A program made the translations under genes and the position numbers. A DNA stretch of 61,786 nucleotides from Acidobacteriota bacterium (GTDB lineage: Bacteria > Acidobacteriota > CAIWXX01): NCBI GenBank assembly GCA_016191015.1, contig JACPPM010000140.1, positions 1 to 61,786 of the forward strand, written 5' to 3'. This document shows, piece after piece, positions 987-61,786 of this stretch. The notes below the pieces were generated by a model. The model was not told the origin of the DNA, did not search any database, and worked only from the letters and a program-made list of their open reading frames with translations. Every line of letters begins with the position of its first letter. The stretch's first letter is position 1.

Positions 987-1117
987 GGGGGACTGCTCAG
1001 AGCGTGACGCAGCAATCGTCGCGAGCTCCTGAGCGGTTCGATTCCGGAATAGATTACCTGGGCACCGGGTATAGGTGATTGAGCCGCCGTTTTCGGAGGC
1101 GGTGCGGAGACAGATCA

Positions 1118-1954
1118 TTGGATTGCAGGGAATTCGAAGAGTCGATCGGGGCCTACCACGATGGCGAGATTCCCGATGGCCTCGCCACGCCGTACCGGCT
1201 TCACATGGAGTCGTGCGGCGTGTGTGCCGGGCGACTGCGGGAGCTTCAAGGACTCGATGTGGTCCTGCGGTCGTGGCCGCTGCCGGCTGCGCGACGCTCG
1301 AGATCCGTGGAAGACGCGGTGATGGACGCCGTCGCGGCGCGAGGTGCGTCGCCGGTTTTCAGCTACTGGGCTCTGGCCGCTGCGGCCTCGATCGCCGCGA
1401 TCGCGGTCGGGGCCTGGTTTCTCCGGCCGCCTGAGAAGACGGAGGTGGCGAGGGTGCCGCAATCAGAAAATACTACGGTAGTAGAAGGCGTGGAGCCCTC
1501 GCCCCCGCTGCGCAAGCTGTCAGCTCCGGACGAGGCCGACGCGCGGACCCTTTACTATCGCGGGATGGAGCTTGTGCGGAACGGGAGAAGTGACGATGCG
1601 CTGGCGCTCTTCATGGAACTGCAACACCGGTACCCAGGCAGTGGCTTGGCTGCGTCTTCCTCGTATCAGGAGGCCGTCCTGCTCGAAGAGGCGATCAACG
1701 CGGAGGCGATGGACGCTCCGAGCCTTCGCCTGCGCCTCAGCGTCTGGGAGAATATACGCCTGGATGTTTTGGGTGAGCAGGAAATCGAGCGTGCGATGTT
1801 CTACCGAGCGCAGATGAGCTATCTGCTCTACGACAAGACGCAGGACGCTTCTGAGCGGGAGCGGGCCCGCCATCACGCCCGCGCCTACCTCGAACGCCAC
1901 CCCCAGACCGGCGCCGCATCGGCTGTCCGGCGCTGGGTCGACCTTCTGAGGTGA
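1118..1954 (+). CDS. Zinc-finger anti-sigma factor with TPR-like periplasmic region
   Basis: Starting at the TTG at 1118, which has GGAG 8 bases upstream, the product is 278 residues and begins DCREFEESIGAYHDGE, typical of the putative zinc-finger (zf-HC2/ZAS) anti-sigma fold. The zinc ligands are Cys3 and the H29-x3-C33-x2-C36 motif. One transmembrane helix follows at about residues 80-102. The C-terminal part (about 140-278) is helical with a TPR-like YYRGMELVRNGRSDDALALFMELQHRYPGSG stretch split over one or two repeats. Such proteins hold an ECF sigma factor at the membrane. The likely partner is the ECF sigma gene at 2764-3345, although the lexA-like gene lies between them on the other strand. 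Confidence 0.75.
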   Translation: MDCREFEESIGAYHDGEIPDGLATPYRLHMESCGVCAGRLRELQGLDVVLRSWPLPAARRSRSVEDAVMDAVAARGASPVFSYWALAAAASIAAIAVGAWFLRPPEKTEVARVPQSENTTVVEGVEPSPPLRKLSAPDEADARTLYYRGMELVRNGRSDDALALFMELQHRYPGSGLAASSSYQEAVLLEEAINAEAMDAPSLRLRLSVWENIRLDVLGEQEIERAMFYRAQMSYLLYDKTQDASERERARHHARAYLERHPQTGAASAVRRWVDLLR

Positions 1955-2031: not shown

Positions 2032-2640
2032 CTACCGATACTGGCGCAGGAGTGCGACGAGCACGCCGTCGACGGGAATCCGATCCGGCGAGGGTCGGGC
2101 ATCAGCCCCGGTATTCTCGGCTGCGGATGGAGATTCGGACAGGCTGGGGAGGTCGGCGGCGTGTCTTGGGACGGCTCCGAGCCACCTGCCATCGGCCGTG
2201 ATGACGGATTCCCCATCGAGCGGCGCTCGCTCTTCCAGGATCAGCAGGTCGTGATCGCGGATCTGCTCGTCCAGCAGGGCATCACCCATCACCCGCAGCG
2301 CGTAGATGCGAGCCCCAGAGGTCATGCCGCGCGGGACGGTCACCGTTTCCGGCGGCTCGAGCTTCTGGAGATGGGCTCTCGCGCCGATCACCCCTCGGAC
2401 CTCGACCCGAACCGAATCATCCGTCTCCAAGATCTGGATGCTGCGGCTCCGATTGGGCGCTCGCCGGATGTGCCCACGCTCTTCGAGCCGGTTGAGGTAT
2501 TTGTGGACCGTGGCCGATGAGGAGAGCCTGAAATGCTGTCCGATCTCCACAATGGATGGCGAGAATCCCTTTTCGGAGATGTAGGCGCGCAGATACCCAA
2601 GGATATCGGCCTGTCGCTTGGTCAACCCGATCGCTGGCAT
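2032..2640 (-). CDS. LexA-like repressor lacking autoproteolysis residues
   Basis: The 202-residue protein has the normal LexA size and layout. The N-terminal winged helix (residues 5-72: LTKRQADILGYL, GFSPSIVEIG, LNRLEERGHIRR) is well conserved. The C-terminal S24-type domain keeps the fold marks YALRVMGDALLDEQI and DHDLLILEE, but the Ser nucleophile of the GDSM/GMSM motif is Ala121. The position of the catalytic Lys falls in the segment WLGA (about 153-156) with no Lys, and the Ala-Gly cleavage site region reads VIGAR (84-88). It should therefore bind DNA and dimerise but not self-cleave. The ATG at 2640 begins the conserved LexA N terminus. It is divergent from the ECF sigma gene, with 123 bases between. 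Confidence 0.8.
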   Translation of the reverse strand: MPAIGLTKRQADILGYLRAYISEKGFSPSIVEIGQHFRLSSSATVHKYLNRLEERGHIRRAPNRSRSIQILETDDSVRVEVRGVIGARAHLQKLEPPETVTVPRGMTSGARIYALRVMGDALLDEQIRDHDLLILEERAPLDGESVITADGRWLGAVPRHAADLPSLSESPSAAENTGADARPSPDRIPVDGVLVALLRQYR

Positions 2641-2669
2641 GTCCCGATTTCGGATTCTCTTCCGTGCTT

Positions 2670-2681
2670 GTGAATATACAC
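2670..2681. promoter_or_regulatory. Near-palindrome between lexA-like and sigma genes, possible operator
   Basis: GTGAATATACAC is a 12-base inverted repeat with one mismatched pair, framed by CTT and CAAG. It lies 30 bases upstream of the lexA-like start and upstream of the sigma-factor promoter. Position and symmetry fit an operator for the adjacent winged-helix repressor, but no consensus for this protein is known to me. It could be chance. Confidence 0.3.
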
Positions 2682-2724
2682 CAAGAGGCGTGCGGTTGTG
2701 GAGGAATCCGCCCGCGGGGCCATG

Positions 2725-2752
2725 CTGACAACCGGTGCGAACGTCTGATACT
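2725..2752 (+). promoter_or_regulatory. Possible sigma-70-type promoter of the ECF sigma gene
   Basis: CTGACA at 2725-2730 and GATACT at 2747-2752 are separated by 16 bases and resemble the -35 and -10 hexamers. The start codon follows at 2764 with GAGG five bases upstream. If this is correct the leader is only a few bases long. Confidence 0.4.
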
Positions 2753-2763
2753 GTGAGGTCAGG

Positions 2764-3345
2764 ATGCCAACGACGGGAGAATCCGAAAGCCCCGCGAGCG
2801 ATGATCTCGATCTCGTCCGGCGCGTCCTGTCCGGTGACGAGCAGGGGTATCGCCTCCTGATGCGGAAGTACGAACGCCGGGTCTTCGCGATTTGCTATCG
2901 CATTACATGCAACGAGGGCGCCGCTGAAGACGCCGCACAGGACGCGTTCGTTCGCGCGTACTTCGCCTTGAAGAAGTATGACCAGACCCGGCCGTTTCTG
3001 CCGTGGCTCACCCGAATCGCCGTCAACCGCGCTCTCACGGCTGCCGCACGCGAAAGCACGTATCAACCACTCCCCGAGGGGTTTGCGGAGACTCACGCCG
3101 CGACGGACGCGGCGGAGACGAGCGATGCGGCGTGCGCATCCGGGCAGCTCGAACGCGCAGCCCGAGATGCGGTGGCGGCGCTCCCTCCCAAGTTGCGGGC
3201 GGTGGTCACGCTGCGCGTGTTCGAAGAGATGAGTTATGACGAGATTGCGCAGGCTCTCAAGATCTCCATCGGGACGGTCATGAGCCGGTTGAGCAGAGGG
3301 CGGGAGCGATTGCGCGGGAAGCTCGCGCGGTTCGTGTCGGCCTGA
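2764..3345 (+). CDS. ECF-type RNA polymerase sigma factor
   Basis: The 193-residue protein has the two-domain ECF layout. Region 2 covers about residues 18-85 (GDEQGYRLLMRKYERRVFAICYR, AEDAAQDAFVRAY, FLPWLTRIAVNRA). An Ala/Thr-rich linker is followed by region 4 at about 133-190 (LPPKLRAVVTLRVFEEMSYDEIAQAL, GTVMSRLSRGRERLR), the HTH that reads the -35 element. It is RpoE/SigW-like. It probably pairs with the zinc-finger anti-sigma at 1118-1954 and may be controlled by the divergent LexA-like protein. Confidence 0.93.
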   Translation: MPTTGESESPASDDLDLVRRVLSGDEQGYRLLMRKYERRVFAICYRITCNEGAAEDAAQDAFVRAYFALKKYDQTRPFLPWLTRIAVNRALTAAARESTYQPLPEGFAETHAATDAAETSDAACASGQLERAARDAVAALPPKLRAVVTLRVFEEMSYDEIAQALKISIGTVMSRLSRGRERLRGKLARFVSA

Positions 3346-3349
3346 CCCT

Positions 3350-3516
3350 TCCTAACGCGGCGGAGCCGCAACCAAGAGCCGCGGGTTCATGGGTATGCCA
3401 TTTCACCGCAGAGGCGCGGAGAGCGCAGAGCGGGAATCTTTCTCCGCGACCTCTGCGTCTCCGCGGTGAAAAGGTTTCTTGCCATTTCGTGTCAGCACTC
3501 CACTTCTTAGACACTA
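3350..3516. repeat. Composite intergenic repeat with long inverted arms
   Basis: Between the convergent sigma and sulfatase-fold genes lie three repeat pieces. Bases 3350-3373 are the CCTAACGC...GAGCCGCAACC motif, also at 54-80 in inverted form. Bases 3399-3474 have arms TTTCACCGCAGAG and CTCTGCGTCTCCGCGGTGAAA, which can pair into a long stem. Bases 3481-3516 (TGCCATTTCGTGTCA, then CTTCTTAGACACTAAT) recur inverted at 61646-61684. The stem could act as a bidirectional terminator. Confidence 0.7.
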
Positions 3517-5550
3517 ATGCCCGCCTGTCAGCTCGCGCCGCAGCGCCTGGGCGGCGTTCGCGATGTCAGCAGGGATGCCATGATGGCTGAGCACTCCTTC
3601 GACGAGGCCCAGCGCCTCCTGCTTCTTGCCCCGTGCGGAGAGCACGCGCGCGAGGTTCAGCTGGACCCCGGGTGATTCCGGCTGTAGCGCGAGGGACGAG
3701 CGCAGGAGGGATTCGGCCTTGGCCGGGTCACCGCCGTTCAGCATCGCGATGGCTGCTCCGTTCAGCAGCGATGCGGTCGGCTCGCCGATCGCCAGTGCCC
3801 GGTCGTAGCACTTTGACGCTTCACTGTACTGCCCTTGCTGGTTGTGCAGGTGTCCGAGGTTGACCCATGCTTCGAGGAAGTTGGGGTCGCGAGCGAGTGC
3901 GCGCTGGAACAGCTCCACGGCGGCGGCCCGGTTGCCTTCCAGGGCGTAGGTGATCGCGGTTTCATTGGCAACCTGAGCGTCGTCGGCACCGGCAGCGGCG
4001 GCTTCGCGGAGTGTTTCCCTGGCCTCACTGCGCGCGCCACGGTCCGCCTGGCAACGGGCGAGGGCGAGCAGGAGCCTCGGATGGCGCAGATTCCTCGTCG
4101 TTGCGAGGAATCGACAAGATTCTTCCGACGCGCCCGAGCGCTCGAGAAGGTCAGCGTAGAGCGATGCGATCTCCGGGCTGCCCGGATCCGTGGCGAGAGT
4201 TTCGCGCAGGGTGGACAAGGCCGCCGTGAGATCGCCCTTCTCGATTGCGGCGATCGCCTCGTCGATTTTGACAAGAAGATGTACCCGGTCCTTTGGATCG
4301 GGCAGGGGCGCGGAGGAGCTTGTGCCGGCCTGCAGATATCCCAGTGATCGCAATTTTTCGCGCGTCTCGGTGTCCGGAGCGGTGGGGGTGAGGGGGGATC
4401 GCTCGTCACGGACGATCGGGGCAAGCTCTTTTCGCAGTGACTCGACTCGCTCCCCGTCGACTGCATACCGGTTATGCAGCTCGCGTGGGTCATCGAGGAG
4501 CCGATAGAGCTCCGCCTTCGGTGCGTCGATGAGCTTCTCCGATCGTGTCCGGATGGAACGGAGCTCCGACCAGCCGAGGTCGAGTCGCGGATAGAAGCTC
4601 TCCGCATAGATGCTCTCTCGCGCCGCACCGGAGAAGAGATCCCGCCCATCGAGGCCGGGGCTAAGTGGAATCCGCAACGCGCTCTGCACCGTGGGGTAGA
4701 TGTCGACCAGCGATGCCAGTCCATTCGCATGGACGCCACCGGCGCTGCCGGCCCCACAGATGATCAAGGGAACGCGGAGCGTCGAGTCGTAGAGGAAGAC
4801 ACCGTGCGTCGGCTCGCCATGCTCGCCCAGGCTCTCGCCGTGGTCCGCGGTCACGACAATGAGCGTCTTTTCCCTCAGGTTCAGATCGTCCATGGCTGCG
4901 ACGAGCCGGCCCACCGCGGCGTCGGCGTAGGCGATCTCGGCGTCGTAGGGCGTCAGCCCCGCATACTCGTCGTGTCGCCTGTAGGGCGCATGCGGGTCGA
5001 AGAGGTGGACGAACAGGAAAAACGGTGATGCTGTCTCTCGCAGCCAGTTGATGGCCGCATCCACGGTGGCGCCGGCTGGCCTCTCGGGGTAGTGGTGCGC
5101 GGGCAGGTTGTGCGCACTGGTCCGGTCGTCGTATGTGTCGAACCCTTGGTCGAGCCCGAAGCGTCGATTCAGCGGGAAGCCGCTCACAAACGCGGCGGTC
5201 CTGAATCCCCGCGCCTTCAACGACTCACCGAGAAGCACAAGCTCCTCACTCGCGCGGTAGAAGCCGTTGTCGCGAACTGCGGTGCGAGTGGGGTAGAGTC
5301 CGGTCAAGAGTGAGGTGTGTGCGGGAAGCGTCAGCGGGACGGGCGTGAACGCATTCTCGAACAGGGTGCCCTGGCGGGCGAGGGCATCGATGGCAGGCGA
5401 GGTCGATCGCCCATGGCCATAGCACGCGAGATGATCGGCTCGCAGTGTGTCGATTGAGATGATGACGACGTTCTGTGGCACCTTCATGGGTGAGCAGGCG
5501 GAGGGCGCGGCGAGGAGCCACGGGATCAGACTGGCCGGCGCGATTCTCAC
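3514..5550 (-). CDS. Sulfatase-fold hydrolase/transferase lipoprotein with TPR domain
   Basis: The 678-residue protein begins with a lipoprotein-like signal (lipobox around APSACS). An alkaline-phosphatase-superfamily domain at about 25-370 follows (ISIDTLRADHLACYG with a metal Asp; VVTADHGESLGEHGE with metal Asp and His), then a TPR array at about 410-670. At the nucleophile position, where sulfatases have C/S-x-P-x-R, this protein has T-L-P-A-H. Thr is used as nucleophile by related phospho-transferases, so a formylglycine sulfatase role is doubtful. The substrate is unknown. A paralogue with the same architecture lies at 10584-12752, and a purine permease and TonB receptor lie between them. 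Confidence 0.82.
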   Translation of the reverse strand: MRIAPASLIPWLLAAPSACSPMKVPQNVVIISIDTLRADHLACYGHGRSTSPAIDALARQGTLFENAFTPVPLTLPAHTSLLTGLYPTRTAVRDNGFYRASEELVLLGESLKARGFRTAAFVSGFPLNRRFGLDQGFDTYDDRTSAHNLPAHHYPERPAGATVDAAINWLRETASPFFLFVHLFDPHAPYRRHDEYAGLTPYDAEIAYADAAVGRLVAAMDDLNLREKTLIVVTADHGESLGEHGEPTHGVFLYDSTLRVPLIICGAGSAGGVHANGLASLVDIYPTVQSALRIPLSPGLDGRDLFSGAARESIYAESFYPRLDLGWSELRSIRTRSEKLIDAPKAELYRLLDDPRELHNRYAVDGERVESLRKELAPIVRDERSPLTPTAPDTETREKLRSLGYLQAGTSSSAPLPDPKDRVHLLVKIDEAIAAIEKGDLTAALSTLRETLATDPGSPEIASLYADLLERSGASEESCRFLATTRNLRHPRLLLALARCQADRGARSEARETLREAAAAGADDAQVANETAITYALEGNRAAAVELFQRALARDPNFLEAWVNLGHLHNQQGQYSEASKCYDRALAIGEPTASLLNGAAIAMLNGGDPAKAESLLRSSLALQPESPGVQLNLARVLSARGKKQEALGLVEGVLSHHGIPADIANAAQALRRELTGGH

Positions 5551-15893: not shown

Positions 15894-17029
15894 TGCCGTT
15901 CGTTCCAGAATTCTGTGGTCAACTCCCTGAGCCTTTCCTCGAAGATCTGCCGCGAAAACCTCAGACTCTGCGCTCTGATGGCGGCACTATTGAACTCGAA
16001 CGTGCCGAGCTTGTCAATAGCGCCAGCCAACGAAGCCGGGTCTTCCTCATTGAAAAACAAGCCCGTCTCGCCCTCCACGACCGTCTCGATCGCGCCCCCG
16101 CGCGCCAGCGCCACGACCGGTCGCCCGCATGCCTGCGCCTCGATCGGGGCGATTCCCAGGTCCTCTTCGCCCGGCAGAACAAACGCCGCGCAGCCGCGGT
16201 AAAGCTCTCGCAACTCCGATCGCCCCACGTTCCCCAGAAACCTGGTCGTGGCCGGCGCAATTCGCTCCAGCCTCCGCCGCTCTGGCCCATTGCCAACGAC
16301 AAGGTATTCGATGCCCGAGCGAGCCGCGGCCAGGATCGCACGATCGATCCGCTTGTACGGGACGAGCGCCGAAACGGTAAGAAGATAGCTGCCAGGGGGG
16401 GTGACCGTGGCAGGGGGCGTGAAGAAATCCGTGTCCACCGGCGGGTAGAGGACGATTGAATCCCGGCCGTAGTATTTCTTTATGCGAAGAGCGGTGTTGG
16501 CGGAATTGGCCAGAAAGCGGCCGACACGAGTGCTCGACGCGATGTCCCATCGCCTCACCCGCGACATGATGAATCGAGCGGCCACGTGGAACAGACCCGC
16601 CCACTTGTCCGGCGGAAAGTAGTCATCGAATAACTCGTATGCGTAGCGCATCGGCGTGTGGCAGTAGCAGAGGTGGCGCGCACCGGAGGCCGGGATCACC
16701 CCCTTCGCGGCGCAATGGCTGCTGCTGATCACCAGGTCGAATCCTCGGAGGTCCAGAGCCTCGATCGCCCGCGGAAAGAGCGGAAGATAGTACCGGTAGA
16801 TCTTGCGGACCAGCGGGAGCCCGGAGATGAGCGAGCTCTTCACTTTCATTCGTTCGATCGCCGGCGCTTGGGTCCCGGGGACGCGGAAAAGAGTGAAAAG
16901 CGTGGCGCCGGGGAACAATTGACAGAGCGTTTCGAGCACGCGTTCGCCGCCGCGATCGGTGATGAGCCAGTCGTGCACGATGGCCACGCGACTGGCATCC
17001 AGGCCGGGGAGGGCAAGCGGATCAGCCAT
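15887..17029 (-). CDS. Family 4 glycosyltransferase
   Basis: The 380-residue protein starts at the ATG at 17029, overlapping the upstream glycosyltransferase by 8 bases. The N-terminal part has VAIVHDWLITDRGGERVLETL and CYCHTPMRYAYELFDDY. The C-terminal donor-binding part has TVSALVPYKRIDRAI and the E-x7-E-type motif in LPGEEDLGIAPIEAQACGRPV. It probably adds one sugar to the lipid-linked intermediate; donor and linkage cannot be read from sequence. Confidence 0.88.
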   Translation of the reverse strand: MADPLALPGLDASRVAIVHDWLITDRGGERVLETLCQLFPGATLFTLFRVPGTQAPAIERMKVKSSLISGLPLVRKIYRYYLPLFPRAIEALDLRGFDLVISSSHCAAKGVIPASGARHLCYCHTPMRYAYELFDDYFPPDKWAGLFHVAARFIMSRVRRWDIASSTRVGRFLANSANTALRIKKYYGRDSIVLYPPVDTDFFTPPATVTPPGSYLLTVSALVPYKRIDRAILAAARSGIEYLVVGNGPERRRLERIAPATTRFLGNVGRSELRELYRGCAAFVLPGEEDLGIAPIEAQACGRPVVALARGGAIETVVEGETGLFFNEEDPASLAGAIDKLGTFEFNSAAIRAQSLRFSRQIFEERLRELTTEFWNERQC

Positions 17030-18077
17030 GTCCGACTCTCGACGCGGCCCGCTCGTATACCGCTCGCGTCTCTCTCGCGCACGCCTCGAAGCTGAACCTG
17101 TGTGCATTCGCAAGTCCGCGCGCCGCGAGATCGGCACGCAGCGCCTCTCCACAGGCCAGGCGATCCATCGCGGAAACCAGAGAGGCGACATCGTCGCCGC
17201 TGAAGAGCAGGGCGCTCTCGCCGAGCGTCTCCCGGAACACCGGAATGTCGGATGCGACAACCGGGCACCCCGATGCCTGTGCCTCGATCGCCGTCAGGCC
17301 GAACCCTTCGTACCGCGAGGGGCATATGAGGGCCAACGCCGATCTGTAGAGCCGCGCGAGATCTCGCTTGTCGAGGTACCCCAGCGCGCGCACTCCGGCG
17401 GGCAAGTCACCGATTGCGCCTTCGAATCCAGCAATCGCGAGATCGACGCCTGTCTTGCAAGCGGCGAACCTCCCGTATGCCTCCACGAGGAGGGGCAGGT
17501 TCTTGTGAGGTTTGTTGTTGCCGACGCAGAGGAAGAACGGGCGAGAGACCGGCTCTTTGTCTACGTTTGTAGTGAAAAACGGATCGACCCCGTTGTAGAC
17601 TCTGACGATTTTTCCCGCCGCCCAGGGATATCTGGCGAGGATGTCGGACCGGCTTGATTCGGAGACGGTGATGACGGCCTCTGAGCTGCTCAGGGCACGG
17701 CGAACGAAATATCTGGCGTAGATGTGCGCGTGGTGTCCCGGGAGGGTTTTCGGGTAGAGCAGGTGGATGATGTCGTGGACGGTGACGACGGCAGGGCAGG
17801 GGAGTCGGAAGGGCAGCACATAATGGGGAGAGTGGAAGAGGTCGGCTCTCTCGGACCTCACCGCGCTCGAAATCGCGAGTAGCTCATTCAGGCTGTACAG
17901 CTCGGCGGACACGATCCGGACCGGGAAGAGATTCCTGAGGGACGTGGCGTCTCGTTCGAAGCAGAGCAGGACGTATTCGTTCCGGCTGTCCAAGTCGCGC
18001 AGTTGGGCGACCAGGTTTTCGATGTACGTGCCGATGCCGTGGTCGTGGAGCTTCCGGCAATCGATCGCGATTTTCAT
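17022..18077 (-). CDS. Family 4 glycosyltransferase
   Basis: The 351-residue GT-B protein has the N-terminal IAIDCRKLHDHGIGTYIENL, a central VTVHDIIHLLYP and SESSRSDILARYP, and a donor-site end CPSRYEGFGLTAIEAQASGCPVV. It is similar in layout to the proteins at 20454-21563 and 21633-22742, so the three probably arose by duplication. It lies 13 bases after the flippase stop and overlaps the next gene, so it is within one transcript. Confidence 0.88.
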   Translation of the reverse strand: MKIAIDCRKLHDHGIGTYIENLVAQLRDLDSRNEYVLLCFERDATSLRNLFPVRIVSAELYSLNELLAISSAVRSERADLFHSPHYVLPFRLPCPAVVTVHDIIHLLYPKTLPGHHAHIYARYFVRRALSSSEAVITVSESSRSDILARYPWAAGKIVRVYNGVDPFFTTNVDKEPVSRPFFLCVGNNKPHKNLPLLVEAYGRFAACKTGVDLAIAGFEGAIGDLPAGVRALGYLDKRDLARLYRSALALICPSRYEGFGLTAIEAQASGCPVVASDIPVFRETLGESALLFSGDDVASLVSAMDRLACGEALRADLAARGLANAHRFSFEACARETRAVYERAASRVGHG

Positions 18078-18090
18078 GGCTGCTCCAATT

Positions 18091-19473
18091 TCATCGGGTG
18101 AGGAGAACGGCCCGGACGTCCGTCCACTTCACGACTGAGAATGCGCGGGACAACAGGACGTGCCCGACCGCCGCCAGACCGAGGAATGGTATCAGCGGGA
18201 GTCCGCTTCCGGCAAGGAGTAGAACGCCGAGCGCGGCAGCCTCGAGGATCATCCGCGCCAGAGCTTCGGTGAGCCCGTCGACGAGCGGACCGAGCCGCCA
18301 GCCGATCTGCCCGAGGTCGAATGATGCCGCGGCGACCATCGCCCACGCCGTCCACGTGACCCCGCCGTACCAGGCGGCGACACCAACCAGCACAAGTCCG
18401 ACAACCAGACTGCGCATCCCGATCCGAAGACACTCTTTCTCGAACCCGGCCGCCAGCAGACTCCGAAAACATAACTCGATAAGCGACATCAGCGGAATGA
18501 GCAAGGCCAGAACCGTCAGTACGCTTCCGGACGTGGCGAATCTCGTGCCGAGCCCGAGCAGATCGAACAGCTCCTGCCCGCGCACGATGAGCACCGCGGC
18601 GACCGCGACCGAGTAGAAGGCGAGGAAGGCGAATGCGTGTCGAAACCCTGCGGCGAAGCCTGAGCCCTCGCGCGCCTGGGCGAGCCTGGGGAGCACCGCC
18701 GAGACCACGCTGCTCGAAACCAGAAAGAAGATCATGACCATCTTCTGTGCAATCGAGTAGATACCAGCATCCGTGACCCCACGCAATCGGGCGAGAAACA
18801 GTATGTCCGCGCGCCAGAAAAGTGAATAGACAGCGAGAATTCCGATAAATGCCGACATGCCACGGAGGAAGTGGAGTCGCCCGTGCCCGGCCACGTGAAC
18901 ACGCGGCAGACCTGAGACTGAAACCTGATAGAAGAGCAGGGCCGCAAAGCGAGCTGCCGCGTTGACGGCCAGCAGGAGGCGCACATCCGGTCTGAGGACA
19001 ATGACGGAGATCGAGAGGCACAGGCGGAGGGCGTTTTCGGCGGCCGAGACGATTGCGACCGTCCGTGTGCGCCTGAGGCCGATGAACACGGAGTCCAGGA
19101 TTGTGACGAGAGTCGAGGGGACCAACACCAGACAACCGGCCGCCACAGCTTCGACGACGGCTCGATCGTATCCGGTCACGAGCGCGGTCAGGAACGCCGC
19201 CGCGGCGGTCGCGATGCAGATCGGCAGAACGGCCCTCGTCGCTGCGCGGATCAGCTCGCGTGCCTCCTGGGGATTCCTTGCCACCTCACGAACGAGGTAA
19301 TTCTCTAGCCCCAGTCCACCGAAAACCTGGAACAGCGCGAGAACCGCCATGGCCGTGTTGAATTGGCCTACGAGCTCGACACCGCGAATCCTGGCAAGCA
19401 GGTACACCACGCCGAAGCTGGCCGTGGGCGCCAGGGTGCGAGCCAGCAGGATGAAACCGGCGGACCTTACCAT
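18091..19473 (-). CDS. Wzx-like polysaccharide flippase
   Basis: The 460-residue protein has about 12-14 hydrophobic helices and the MOP-superfamily N terminus (VYLLARIRGVELVGQFNTAMA, VFGGLGLENYLVREVAR). It would flip the completed undecaprenyl-linked repeat unit to the periplasm. No Wzy polymerase or Wza/Wzc export gene is recognisable in the window, so polymerisation and export genes are elsewhere or absent. It lies within the glycosyltransferase run. Confidence 0.85.
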   Translation of the reverse strand: MVRSAGFILLARTLAPTASFGVVYLLARIRGVELVGQFNTAMAVLALFQVFGGLGLENYLVREVARNPQEARELIRAATRAVLPICIATAAAAFLTALVTGYDRAVVEAVAAGCLVLVPSTLVTILDSVFIGLRRTRTVAIVSAAENALRLCLSISVIVLRPDVRLLLAVNAAARFAALLFYQVSVSGLPRVHVAGHGRLHFLRGMSAFIGILAVYSLFWRADILFLARLRGVTDAGIYSIAQKMVMIFFLVSSSVVSAVLPRLAQAREGSGFAAGFRHAFAFLAFYSVAVAAVLIVRGQELFDLLGLGTRFATSGSVLTVLALLIPLMSLIELCFRSLLAAGFEKECLRIGMRSLVVGLVLVGVAAWYGGVTWTAWAMVAAASFDLGQIGWRLGPLVDGLTEALARMILEAAALGVLLLAGSGLPLIPFLGLAAVGHVLLSRAFSVVKWTDVRAVLLTR

Positions 19474-19479
19474 GGTGGA

Positions 19480-19552
19480 GTTTAAAGTTCAAAGTTCAAG
19501 AACGTCAAACAAAACTTGAGCGTCTTGAACTTTGAACTTTGAACTTTGAACG
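19480..19552. repeat. Inverted pair of TTTGAAC heptamer arrays
   Basis: GTTTAAAGTTCAAAGTTCAA (19479-19499) faces TTGAACTTTGAACTTTGAAC (19525-19550), so the transcript can form a stem of about 20 bp with a loop of about 25. It lies between the GT2 stop codon and the flippase start, where it could attenuate transcription between cluster halves. Confidence 0.85.
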
Positions 19553-19554
19553 TG

Positions 19555-20457
19555 TCATCCTCCGATCTCGTAGTCCTTCACGGCGTGATAGATCCGGCGG
19601 CGCATCTCGACGAGCTCGTGATCAGAATAGAGGCGGGCAAGCGCGAGGTCGAGGCCGGTCCTGATGAGGAGGTACGCCTTGAGGAGGCGAGAGCTGACGC
19701 GCCCATGGTGTTTGGAATAGAAATAGAGCTGGCTCCGACGGTATTCGAGGCCGGCCTTGGCGCGATTCTTTTCTGTGGATTTGCCACCGAAGTGCACAAT
19801 CCGCCAGGAGGGGTCATAGATGATGCGCAGTCCCTTCCCGCGGATCCGTTCGCACAGATCCACTTCCTCGGTGTACATGAAGAAAGCCTCATCCAGCAAG
19901 CCCACGTCGAGGAGCAGGTCCTGGCGGGAGAGCAGGAACGCACCTGAGACCCAATGCGGATACATGACCTTCAATCCGACGGTCCTCTGTCGCACGATCA
20001 TCGCGAGTCGCGAGAAGTACTTCTGATAGAACTCGTTGCCGAAGCCGATCATGTTCCCGTACGAAACCTGCAAGCGCCCATCGGCCTCTTCAAGCGCACA
20101 GCCGGCCGCGCCCAGCGTAGGATCATCATCGAGATGCCGCACCATGGCCTCGATCGTTCCGGGGCGGACGCGGGTATCGTTGTTGAGCAGCAGGACGAGC
20201 TCCCCGCGCGCCCGCCGAATTCCCTGATTGTTCGCCTGGGAGAACCCCGTGTTCTCCCGGTTCCGGATGACAACCGTCGCCGGAAACTCCCGTTCGGCTT
20301 CCTCGACGCCGCCATCACTGCTTGCGTTGTCGACGACGATGATCTCATGAGGAAACGGGAGCCGTGCCTGATCGATCGAACGCATGCAGTCCAGGAGGTA
20401 CTGCTTGCAGTTGTAGCTGACGATGATGATCGAGAGCTTGATACCGTCACTGCTCAC
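19555..20457 (-). CDS. Family 2 glycosyltransferase
   Basis: The 300-residue GT-A protein has SIIIVSYNCKQYLLDCMRSI, EIIVVDNASSDGG, the ENTGFSQANNQGIRRA segment and the metal-binding LLLNNDTRVRPG, then a GAFLLSRQDLLLDVGLLDE acceptor-side motif. It resembles rhamnosyl- or galactofuranosyl-type transferases of surface glycans. Its ATG overlaps the upstream glycosyltransferase stop by 4 bases. A short basic tail follows the catalytic domain. Confidence 0.9.
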   Translation of the reverse strand: MSSDGIKLSIIIVSYNCKQYLLDCMRSIDQARLPFPHEIIVVDNASSDGGVEEAEREFPATVVIRNRENTGFSQANNQGIRRARGELVLLLNNDTRVRPGTIEAMVRHLDDDPTLGAAGCALEEADGRLQVSYGNMIGFGNEFYQKYFSRLAMIVRQRTVGLKVMYPHWVSGAFLLSRQDLLLDVGLLDEAFFMYTEEVDLCERIRGKGLRIIYDPSWRIVHFGGKSTEKNRAKAGLEYRRSQLYFYSKHHGRVSSRLLKAYLLIRTGLDLALARLYSDHELVEMRRRIYHAVKDYEIGG

Positions 20458-21563
20458 TGGCTACTTCCCATGACCTCTCCGATCAAACTCAAGAACTTTG
20501 CGGCCGCCGCCTGAGCGCTGTAGGCGGCCGCGAGCTCCAGTCCCTTGCTCCGCATCAGCCTCCGCCGCGCAGGATCCGAGAGCAGGGAGTCCATCGCATC
20601 GGCGATCTCCTTCGGATCTCGCGCGTCGACGAGCATGGCGTGGTCGCGGAAGATCTCCTCCAGACTCGAGCCCCGACTCGAGACGACGGGAAGCCCGCAC
20701 GCGCACGCCTCGAGCGGAGGCAGGCCGAATCCTTCATACTCGGAGAGAAAGACGAGGAGATCCGCGGCCTGGTAGAGTTGCCTCACCGTTGCTTCCTGCG
20801 TATAGCCGCCGAAGAAGACCCTGTGGCCGATGCCCATCTTCGCTGCCATCCGGCCGTAGTCGACTTTGGGATGCGTGCGATTCTCCCCAGCCACCCACAG
20901 ACGCGCCTCTGGATGTCTCCGCGACAGATCGGAGAATGCCTGGAGGAGCACGTCGGTGCGGCGGCGCTGAAAGAGCGACCCCACCGAAAGTATCAGGGGG
21001 CCGGAGAGGCCCAGGCGCGATCGGAACGCTGCCACGTCGCAGCCTCCCCGCGCAACGTCCGGGTCGACGCCCTCCTTGGCAACCAGAACGCGCTCGGGCG
21101 GCAGCCGGTAGTGCCGGAGGATCTCAGTCCTGGAGAATTCGGAGACCGTGAAAACGGCCACGGCCTTCCTCGCAGAAAGCCGCGAAAGCGTGATCCGCTT
21201 CAACCGCTCGCGCGTCGAAAACCACTCGGGATGGGCCACGAAGGACACATCGTGAAGAGTGAAAATCGACGGGATCCGAGCGCGCAACGGCAACCAGTAT
21301 CCCGGGGTATAGAATAAATCCACTCCGTCCTTCGACAGGAGCCGCGGCAGCTCGAGCTGCTCCTGCAGGAGCTTCCGAGATCTCCTGGGAACGTGGCGTA
21401 CTACGAAGCCCGGACCCTCGGGTGCGCGGATGTCCTCGGGCCCGTAGAGGGAGAACTGGTGGGGGGTCTCGGTCTGGGCCAGCCCGGCCAGAATCACCCG
21501 GAGGAATCGGCCGACGCCCGTAGGCTTCCCGCTCAGTTCACTGCAGTCGATGCCAATCCGCAT
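20454..21563 (-). CDS. Family 4 glycosyltransferase
   Basis: The 369-residue protein starts at the ATG at 21563 with MRIGIDCSELSGKPTGVGRF. It has FTLHDVSFVAHPEWFS, FTVSEFSRTEILRHY, LILSVGSLFQRRRTDVLLQAF and the donor-site LSEYEGFGLPPLEACACGLPVV. It closely parallels the neighbour at 21633-22742. It is a cytoplasmic or membrane-associated sugar transferase in the polysaccharide pathway; the donor is unknown. Confidence 0.9.
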   Translation of the reverse strand: MRIGIDCSELSGKPTGVGRFLRVILAGLAQTETPHQFSLYGPEDIRAPEGPGFVVRHVPRRSRKLLQEQLELPRLLSKDGVDLFYTPGYWLPLRARIPSIFTLHDVSFVAHPEWFSTRERLKRITLSRLSARKAVAVFTVSEFSRTEILRHYRLPPERVLVAKEGVDPDVARGGCDVAAFRSRLGLSGPLILSVGSLFQRRRTDVLLQAFSDLSRRHPEARLWVAGENRTHPKVDYGRMAAKMGIGHRVFFGGYTQEATVRQLYQAADLLVFLSEYEGFGLPPLEACACGLPVVSSRGSSLEEIFRDHAMLVDARDPKEIADAMDSLLSDPARRRLMRSKGLELAAAYSAQAAAAKFLSLIGEVMGSSQ

Positions 21564-21632
21564 GTCGTCATTCGAGGGAGCCGGCCGAGGACCGGCGACA
21601 AAATATCTCCGACCCTTCGCACCAGTCCGCAA

Positions 21633-26035: not shown

Positions 26036-26359
26036 TGCCCACAAGGTAGCGAATGTCGGGGCTGGGCGCAACTGATCGTCGAGCGGCTGGCACGGAGGCG
26101 GCACGGCTACGGCAAAGTCCCGGAAACCGCAGATTTCACAGATTGACTCGCAGATGTCGCCGATTGCTTCGCGCCGACCCGAGAGTGAGGACCAATTTGC
26201 TCGTCGGTTGAATGCTGGAAGAATCTGCGTAATCTGCGCGGAAATCTGCGCCATCTGCGGTTTCGCACGGAACGGCCTCGCCCGAGTCGGCGCCTCGACT
26301 TTGCCGCAGCCCTGAGGCGGCCGTCGATCTTGACCCAGTCCTGCCGCGGTGCATAAGAT
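26036..26359. other. Intergenic region with CAGATT-type repeats
   Basis: The 324 bases between divergent genes contain no supported gene. Bases 26127-26272 hold an imperfect inverted repeat: GGAAACCGCAGATTTCACAG on the left, and AATCTGCG units ending in ATCTGCGGTTTC on the right. A related fragment occurs at 59845-59876. No clear promoter was recognised. Confidence 0.6.
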
Positions 26360-59968: not shown

Positions 59969-61786
59969 ATGTACCTGTCAGGCCTCGTCGACAACCACTT
60001 CATGGTGTGGAGCCTCGACGATCCGACGACGATCGTGGGGAGGTCTAGCCAGAGCACGATCAGAATTCCTCACCAGACCGTGTCGAAGTCTCACGCGGAG
60101 ATCGTTCTTCAACACGGGTCCTACACGGTGAGGGATTTGGGGAGTCGGAATGGAACGACAGTCAACGGCACGCGCATTCGAGACGCAGTGGGGCTCAAGC
60201 CGGGCGACAATGTGGGGTTCGGCGACATTGTCTTGATGGCGGCGGAGGAGGAACCGCACCAGGCAACAGTGTACAACGACTCGGCCAGCCTCCTGTCGTC
60301 GGTGCGCTTGTCCGTGGACGATTTGCTGAAGAAGAGATCGGAACCCGCGACAGGGCAGCTCCTGCACGTGCTGGCTGAGGCCGGGCGTCTCCTCGTGTTG
60401 TTCCGCCCCCTAAACGAAACCTGCGAAGACATACTCGGGATCGCTGAGAAGGCGGTCCCGGCCTCGCGCCTCAGCCTCCTGCTCAAGCACGAGGACGCCT
60501 CCGATCCTGTTCAGGTCGCCGCCCGGCACCGCGGTGGCAGGGCCGAGGATCCTCTCGTTCTCTCGCGGACGATGGTCGGGAAGGTGCTCAGCGAGCGCAC
60601 CTCCGTTCTTACCTCAGACGCGACCGTCGATCCAAGATTCCGTGGGCAGGAGAGCATAATGATTCATGGCATCCGCTCGGCGATGGCCGTGCCTCTCTTC
60701 GACAACGAGAAGGTGCTCGGGATCCTCTACGCCGATACTGATGACCCGGCGACTCACTACAGTCGCGAGCATCTGGAGGTGTTCACTTTGCTGGCGAACA
60801 TGGCGGCGGTGAAGATCACCAACGCACGGCTGCTGGAGGCGCAACGAGAACGGGATCGGTTGGAGCAGGAGCTGGCGACCGCGGCGCGCATCCAGCGAGC
60901 GCTCCTTCCGGCGGCCTGCCCGCACGTTGTCGGCTATGAGATTCATGCCTTTCAGGAACCCTGTTTCGAGGTGGGCCGTGATCTGTACGATTTCTACCCT
61001 TGTTCCTCCGACGGGCAGCTCTACCTGCTTCTCGGCGATGTGAGCGGCAAGGGGATGGGCGCCGCCCTTCTGATGTCATCTTTCCTCTCCTACGCCAGAG
61101 TGATCTTCGAAACCGGTGCCGGTCCTGCCGAAATCGTCACGCGGCTTAACTCGATCATCTGCCGCAACACCGAGCCTGAACACTACATCACCCTCTTCCT
61201 CGGGCGGCTCGACCCCTCCACCGGCTCACTCCGATATGTCAATGCCGGCCACCCATCGCCGTTCCTTGTGGCCGACGCCGGACTGCGCGAGCTCCCCAGT
61301 ACCAGCCCACCCGTCGGCCTGCTGCCTCACCTTGCGTACGAGGAGGCGGAGGTGGAGCTGGCCTGTGGCTCGCTCTTGGCGGTCTTCAGCGACGGTATTG
61401 CCGAAGCGAGGTGGGGCGAGGAGTTCTATCAGGTCGAGCAGCTCCGACACTCATTCCTCAGTCTCTCCGCGGATGCAGCTCTGGCGAACATCGCCGAGTC
61501 AGTCGTTCGCTCGGTAGACGACTTCCTCGCCGGACACCCGAGGAATGACGACGTCACCCTGGTCCTCCTGCGCCGCTCGCCCAATGTGCAGACCCGACGA
61601 AGCTCGGACACCCCTGAGGATACCGCCTCGACGACGAAGGAAGAATTAGTGTCTAAGAAGTTGAGTGTTGACACGAAATGGCAAAACGTTCGAGTGGGTG
61701 AGATCCTCCGAACCCCTCTCAGGAAAGCAGGAAGGGAGGAATGCAGGAACGGAGCAGTCATCTCCGGTGCTCAGGGTGGCATCGAA
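59969..61786 (+). CDS. FHA-GAF-SpoIIE (PP2C) phosphatase, RsbU-like, truncated by window end
   Basis: A continuous frame of 606 codons runs from ATG 59969 to the right edge without a stop. An FHA domain (about 1-95: IVGRSSQSTIRIP, VSKSHAEI, LGSRNGTTVNG) binds phospho-Thr. A GAF domain (about 110-280: SAMAVPLFDNEKVLGILYAD) follows, then a coiled-coil link (RERDRLEQELATAARIQRAL). A PP2C/SpoIIE domain (about 290-530) has FEVGRDLYDFY, LLLGDVSGKGMGAALL, YVNAGHPSPFL, FSDGIAEAR and HPRNDDVTLVLL. It would dephosphorylate a STAS antagonist in partner switching. The last 45 or so codons lie in a dispersed repeat, so the true C terminus is uncertain. Confidence 0.9.
   Translation, partial: MYLSGLVDNHFMVWSLDDPTTIVGRSSQSTIRIPHQTVSKSHAEIVLQHGSYTVRDLGSRNGTTVNGTRIRDAVGLKPGDNVGFGDIVLMAAEEEPHQATVYNDSASLLSSVRLSVDDLLKKRSEPATGQLLHVLAEAGRLLVLFRPLNETCEDILGIAEKAVPASRLSLLLKHEDASDPVQVAARHRGGRAEDPLVLSRTMVGKVLSERTSVLTSDATVDPRFRGQESIMIHGIRSAMAVPLFDNEKVLGILYADTDDPATHYSREHLEVFTLLANMAAVKITNARLLEAQRERDRLEQELATAARIQRALLPAACPHVVGYEIHAFQEPCFEVGRDLYDFYPCSSDGQLYLLLGDVSGKGMGAALLMSSFLSYARVIFETGAGPAEIVTRLNSIICRNTEPEHYITLFLGRLDPSTGSLRYVNAGHPSPFLVADAGLRELPSTSPPVGLLPHLAYEEAEVELACGSLLAVFSDGIAEARWGEEFYQVEQLRHSFLSLSADAALANIAESVVRSVDDFLAGHPRNDDVTLVLLRRSPNVQTRRSSDTPEDTASTTKEELVSKKLSVDTKWQNVRVGEILRTPLRKAGREECRNGAVISGAQGGIE
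61646..61786. repeat. Dispersed repeat copy at the right edge
   Basis: In inverted orientation this segment matches 3481-3516 (CTTCTTAGACACTAAT ... TGCCATTTCGTGTCA) and 45556-45622 (CATTCCTCCCTTCCTG, TTTCCTGAGAG). It is read through in frame by the phosphatase gene and continues past the window. Confidence 0.75.

Follow-up and report, generated by a model that had tools for sequence, protein, structure and literature searches.

At positions 2032–2640 on the minus strand, the 61,786-nucleotide stretch of Acidobacteriota DNA analysed here (the window) encodes a 202-residue LexA-like protein, with its ATG at 2640, that has lost the catalytic dyad of the LexA family. As far as its sequence tells, this protein is unable to use the self-cleavage mechanism of LexA. 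The second half of its peptidase domain has decayed, while the winged helix is intact and the last strand is kept. We consider it probable that the protein is a functional DNA-binding repressor that derives from LexA and is uncoupled from RecA-dependent self-cleavage.

The first-pass annotation had given the limits of this gene correctly. The reading frame is full-length, free of frameshifts and coding-like in its GC content by codon position, and no LexA-like peptide was found in the other two frames, which rules out a hidden frameshift that would restore a normal C-terminus. The DNA-binding half, described as canonical, is indeed so, with a match to LexA_DNA_bind (PF01726) at an E-value of 5.1e-20 and 71.5 bits against a cut-off of 23.7. 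The score for Peptidase_S24 (18.5 bits) falls below the Pfam cut-off of 23.3, and that for the lexA equivalog TIGR00498 (97.4 bits) below the curated cut-off of 110.95. The top sequence matches in the PDB are LexA structures.

When the protein was aligned to E. coli LexA and about 130 relatives, E. coli residues Ala84, Gly85, Ser119 and Lys156 fell onto Ala87, Arg88, Ala121 and Pro158, and the four columns read A-R-A-P in place of A-G-S-K. The former nucleophile is Ala121 of the sequence GDAL (2278..2280), as had been proposed. The general base had rightly been called lost; its column, however, is not located within the sequence WLGA, as had been suggested, but is Pro158 directly after it (2167..2169). 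At the former scissile bond, which is Ala-Gly or Cys-Gly in LexA and Ala87-Arg88 here (2377..2382), the glycine has been replaced as claimed, but the alanine, thought to be gone as well, is still present. All lysines of the protein are found at residues 8, 24, 47 and 93. With none beyond residue 93, a substitute Ser-Lys dyad is impossible in the C-terminal domain, and no other Ser or Lys occupies the dyad positions in the alignment.

An AlphaFold model calculated with an 86-sequence alignment has a mean pLDDT of 82.6, and LexA entries rank first in a Foldseek search with this model. The winged-helix domain (residues 1–72; 2425..2640) is predicted with confidence, mostly with pLDDT values above 90, and superposes on the LexA structure 1lea with a TM-score of 0.88 at 0.9 Å. 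The start of the C-terminal domain is ordered, residues 164–183 (2092..2151) are predicted to be disordered (pLDDT below 50), and the last strand (residues 188–202; 2035..2079) is again confident, with a pLDDT of about 91 for residues 191–200. The C-terminal domain of this predicted, partly ordered model superposes poorly on LexA C-terminal domains. The earlier statement that fold and length are both kept therefore holds for the length and for the N-terminal domain, but not for the C-terminal fold throughout. Identity to 12 cleavable relatives follows the same course, with values of 0.51 for the N-terminal domain, 0.36 for the middle and 0.18 for residues 149–202. Conservation is higher in the DNA-binding domain than in the peptidase domain, a gradient that most other proteins lacking the dyad share. 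Gly192 and Arg199 of the last strand are invariant across all 86 sequences, the window protein included, and it is this strand that we take to form the dimer contact of LexA. A Ser-rich tract (residues 166–172) lies inside the decayed region. LexA dimerises via its C-terminal domain (PMC3834820), and because part of this domain is predicted to be disordered, dimerisation of the window protein may be impaired.

The host genome (6.43 Mb in 349 contigs, 100% complete) contains RecA. A search for a second, cleavable lexA, which the annotation had recommended, located one on another contig (G000:C139:6380-6967) with all four residues A-G-S-K intact. It adjoins an open reading frame for a Y-family polymerase, named from its sequence, and is immediately preceded by a promoter-like stretch with a perfect TTACGC-N5-TTACGC direct repeat. 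The same motif occurs in a sister genome (G001). Elsewhere in the host genome, matches to this type of box with one mismatch almost all belong to a dispersed repeat. The cleavable C139 LexA would carry the SOS response.

Several other repeats were seen. A dispersed 36-bp element, CCATTTCGTGTC-N13-TTAGACACTAA, is located at 3482–3517 and 61646–61681 of the window and has 27 copies in the genome, several of them near contig ends; these genome-wide copies support the assignment of the window contig to this genome. A resembling element lies upstream of the intact lexA of the sister genome (L034). The sequence TTCCGCGCAGATTACGC at 26227–26243 of the window is one copy of another repeat, to which about a hundred matches, nearly identical, are spread over the genome, many near contig ends. 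A cluster of glycosyltransferase and flippase-like genes at 16000–21600 looks like a surface polysaccharide locus.

Most probably, the window gene is a member of a LexA lineage other than that of the C139 protein, one that is common in the phylum and often stands head-to-head with an ECF sigma factor gene. Approximately unbiased (AU) tests rejected a grouping with the C139 LexA, of which the gene is therefore no recent duplicate (p 0.012), and with the wider clade of that LexA (p 0.023); a grouping with the ECF-linked clade was not rejected (p 0.129), in a tree that gives no supported placement. The best identity of the N-terminal domain (57%) is to members of the ECF-linked clade and their relatives. 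An origin as a prophage repressor was discarded, as phage matches are distant (27–34% identity in the longer matches) and PHROG matches cover the N-terminal domain only.

The divergent neighbour of the window gene encodes an ECF sigma factor (2764..3345, plus strand; Sigma70_r2 and r4_2 domains), and the two start codons are 123 bp apart, which is the head-to-head arrangement that marks the ECF-linked LexA lineage as defined in this analysis. Cleavable LexA genes are arranged in the same way in families f23, f61, f75 and f84, and with one intervening gene in f14. This shared layout is suggestive of a link between the window locus and the ECF-linked lineage; for orthology of the window ECF gene with the lexA-linked ECF genes, the tree supports neither answer (p 0.19). 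In two readable lexA/ECF loci, which have nth-, ksgA- and recG-like genes nearby (named from reading the sequences, without a family search), a short protein similar to zinc-finger anti-sigma factors is encoded after the ECF gene. No anti-sigma-like gene lies behind the ECF gene of the window. Instead, beyond the lexA-like gene and convergent with it, a protein with zf-HC2 and TPR regions (1079..1954, plus strand; PF13490 at 25.2 bits against a cut-off of 22.2) may be an anti-sigma factor and could act as the partner. In family f60 (L101, L102, L103, L105 and L106), ECF genes of another clade are located downstream of lexA in the same direction, and the linkage between LexA and ECF factors may thus have arisen twice. 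Downstream of the window ECF gene, at 3398–3474, we also noted an imperfect inverted repeat with 33-nt arms of the CACCGCAGAGGCGCGGAGAGCGCAGAG type, which resembles a dispersed intergenic palindrome.

The predicted operator of the ECF-linked lineage is a direct repeat, TTCRC-N6-TTYRC, with a period of 11 bp, found upstream of the cleavable genes and usually in a promoter-like context. Scores were obtained by leave-one-out and compared with a background of 260-bp pieces drawn at random from the window (median -6.4, 95th percentile 3.1, 99th percentile 6.4). A score above 10 was reached by 64 of the 112 intact genes, counted over all lineages, and by nine genes without the dyad, of which families f4 and f64 contribute eight and f29 one. 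Since about nine such genes keep the ancestral operator upstream, it is plausible that LexA proteins without the dyad still bind DNA. Upstream of the window gene itself this box is absent, with a best score (-2.0) that lies within the background. An exact operator match at 2951–2966 was set aside: it falls within the coding sequence of the ECF gene, and a stretch the size of the window should yield one match by chance alone. The divergent intergenic region (2641..2763) contains two opposed sigma-70-like promoter sites, where 0.2 would be expected (1 kb scanned). Over the -10 site (TATATT) of the putative lexA-like promoter lies an imperfect palindrome, CTTGTGAATATACACCAAG (2667..2685), noted by eye and proposed as a candidate operator only.

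Loss of the dyad is not confined to the window gene. Among 134 aligned sequences, E. coli LexA and the window protein included, 113 keep A-G-S-K and 21 do not. On a tree built without the four catalytic columns, loss of Ser and/or Lys requires about eight changes. Well-supported branches force a minimum of five of these, and a single origin is thus unsupported. The families concerned are f1, which holds the window gene, and f2, f4, f29, f43 and f64. In the three f29 proteins, to be counted with caution, only the Lys is changed, to Arg, and the Ser is kept. LexA with this Lys-to-Arg replacement may retain some activity, as in E. coli mutants. Within the main ECF-linked lineage, Ser and/or Lys are lost in 19 of 92 scored genes, or 13 of 27 where the genome holds another intact LexA versus 6 of 65 where it does not; the six genomes of this latter group are 71–91% complete. 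This association is significant when relatedness is ignored (Fisher p 8e-5, odds ratio 9.1), but not when relatedness is allowed for, which leaves too few phylogenetically independent pairs (5). The clades of f2 and f4 that lack the dyad persist with open frames, and those of f4 with intact operators also, indicating that the dyad-less state can be stable. The f2 genomes carry two such genes each, to which G002 and G017 add one intact LexA, and L043 and L044 (f2; genomes G030 and G002) represent yet another LexA-like lineage, which is highly divergent and lacks the dyad residues.

The proposal that the window gene encodes a repressor uncoupled from RecA is thus well supported by sequence, as the dyad is gone, no spare lysine is available, and the genome holds RecA together with a cleavable LexA. 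With self-cleavage lost, DNA damage and RecA should leave the repressor in place. We envisage that an ancestor from the LexA lineage that is cleavable in related bacteria, and often head-to-head with an ECF gene, gave rise to a protein that would be expressed and would dimerise through its last strand. It may bind the divergent region 2641–2763, and its probable site of action is the promoter region that the lexA-like gene has in common with the ECF gene, where it could repress itself, the ECF gene, or both. Its activity would then depend on its own abundance or on another factor, or would not be regulated.

The main alternative, to which we assign a clearly lower probability, is that a redundant LexA copy, without a current role, is undergoing neutral decay. 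With SOS in the hands of the second LexA, the peptidase domain would have been the first part to erode, and the remainder would go the same way. No other end branch of the tree is as long as that of the window gene (2.2–2.3 changes per site), the ancestral operator has been lost upstream, no ortholog from a close relative was found, and the sister genome G001 contains only the intact LexA and no counterpart of the window gene. All of this weighs against a functional repressor, as does the ECF gene not being a demonstrated ortholog of the lexA-linked ones, and the low C-terminal identity and predicted disorder also fit decay. Points against neutral erosion are the full-length, coding-like frame, an N-terminal domain and a last strand that are conserved while the middle decays, and the promoter-like sites in the intergenic region. 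Furthermore, the clades of f2 and f4 persist without the dyad.

It is unlikely, in our view, that the repressor is functional but induced in a different manner, for instance through phosphorylation, a dedicated protease or a partner protein. Such routes have precedents in the LexA of Synechocystis, which lacks the Ala-Gly site and the catalytic Ser and for which tuning by phosphorylation has been proposed (PMC3091678, PMC7567884), and in DdrO, which is cut by IrrE (PMC8072749); the Ser-rich tract in the decayed region would also be compatible with this idea. However, we saw no conserved linkage of the locus to a gene for a protease, a kinase or a partner. The ECF gene is the only recurrent neighbour, and it is absent beside the dyad-less genes of f2, f4 and f29.

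Control of the LexA-like protein by the divergent ECF factor, for example via an ECF-dependent promoter, had been put forward in the first-pass annotation and is very improbable. The adjacency of the two genes and the recurrence of this layout with cleavable LexA genes would suit it, but the promoter-like site upstream looks like one of the sigma-70 type, and since the adjacency is seen equally with cleavable LexA, it leaves the loss of cleavage unexplained. Because several other families have an ECF gene head-to-head with an ordinary cleavable LexA, the ECF gene is at least as likely to be a target of the repressor.

The window protein resembles LexA (TIGR00498; E. coli 1jhf, T. maritima 3k2z) in its winged helix, length, last strand and partial C-domain homology, and differs in having no scissile Gly, Ser or Lys, a score below the family cut-off and a decayed second half of the C-terminal domain. 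A natural non-cleavable LexA is already known. The precedent is the LexA of Synechocystis sp. PCC 6803, which is predicted or reported to be non-self-cleaving and regulates many non-SOS genes, with the control by phosphorylation proposed above (PMC3091678, PMC7567884). The window protein likewise has neither the Ala-Gly site nor the catalytic Ser. Unlike the Synechocystis protein, which is described as the LexA of its organism, the window gene is an extra copy beside a cleavable LexA, and its product has lost the Lys too. Synechocystis has a single LexA. Second paralogs are represented by LexA2 of Leptospira and the second LexA of Deinococcus, which have their own DNA specificity or regulon and are still cleavable (PMC3789691, PMC8072749). 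IrvR of Streptococcus mutans is a LexA-like protein that autocleaves without needing RecA (PMC7101444); the window protein also departs from the RecA rule, but has no catalytic residues left. In the literature searched, outside which many subscription journals lie, natural non-cleavable LexA proteins appear as isolated forms only, and nothing was found on repeated loss of the LexA dyad, on the pairing with ECF genes or on the direct-repeat box in this phylum.

More broadly, and with considerable doubt, we suggest that LexA in this phylum may repeatedly have given rise to two kinds of copy, one inducible and the other permanent and uncleavable, both reading related direct repeats with an 11-bp period. 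The permanent copy might then serve as a constant brake, or set a floor, for part of the SOS regulon or for an ECF stress regulon. LexA is the textbook example of a self-destructing repressor, and a lineage that repeatedly loses the protease, usually beside a second, cleavable LexA, provides a natural test of LexA function after uncoupling from DNA damage. The predicted operator makes the role of such an uncoupled LexA testable at the bench.
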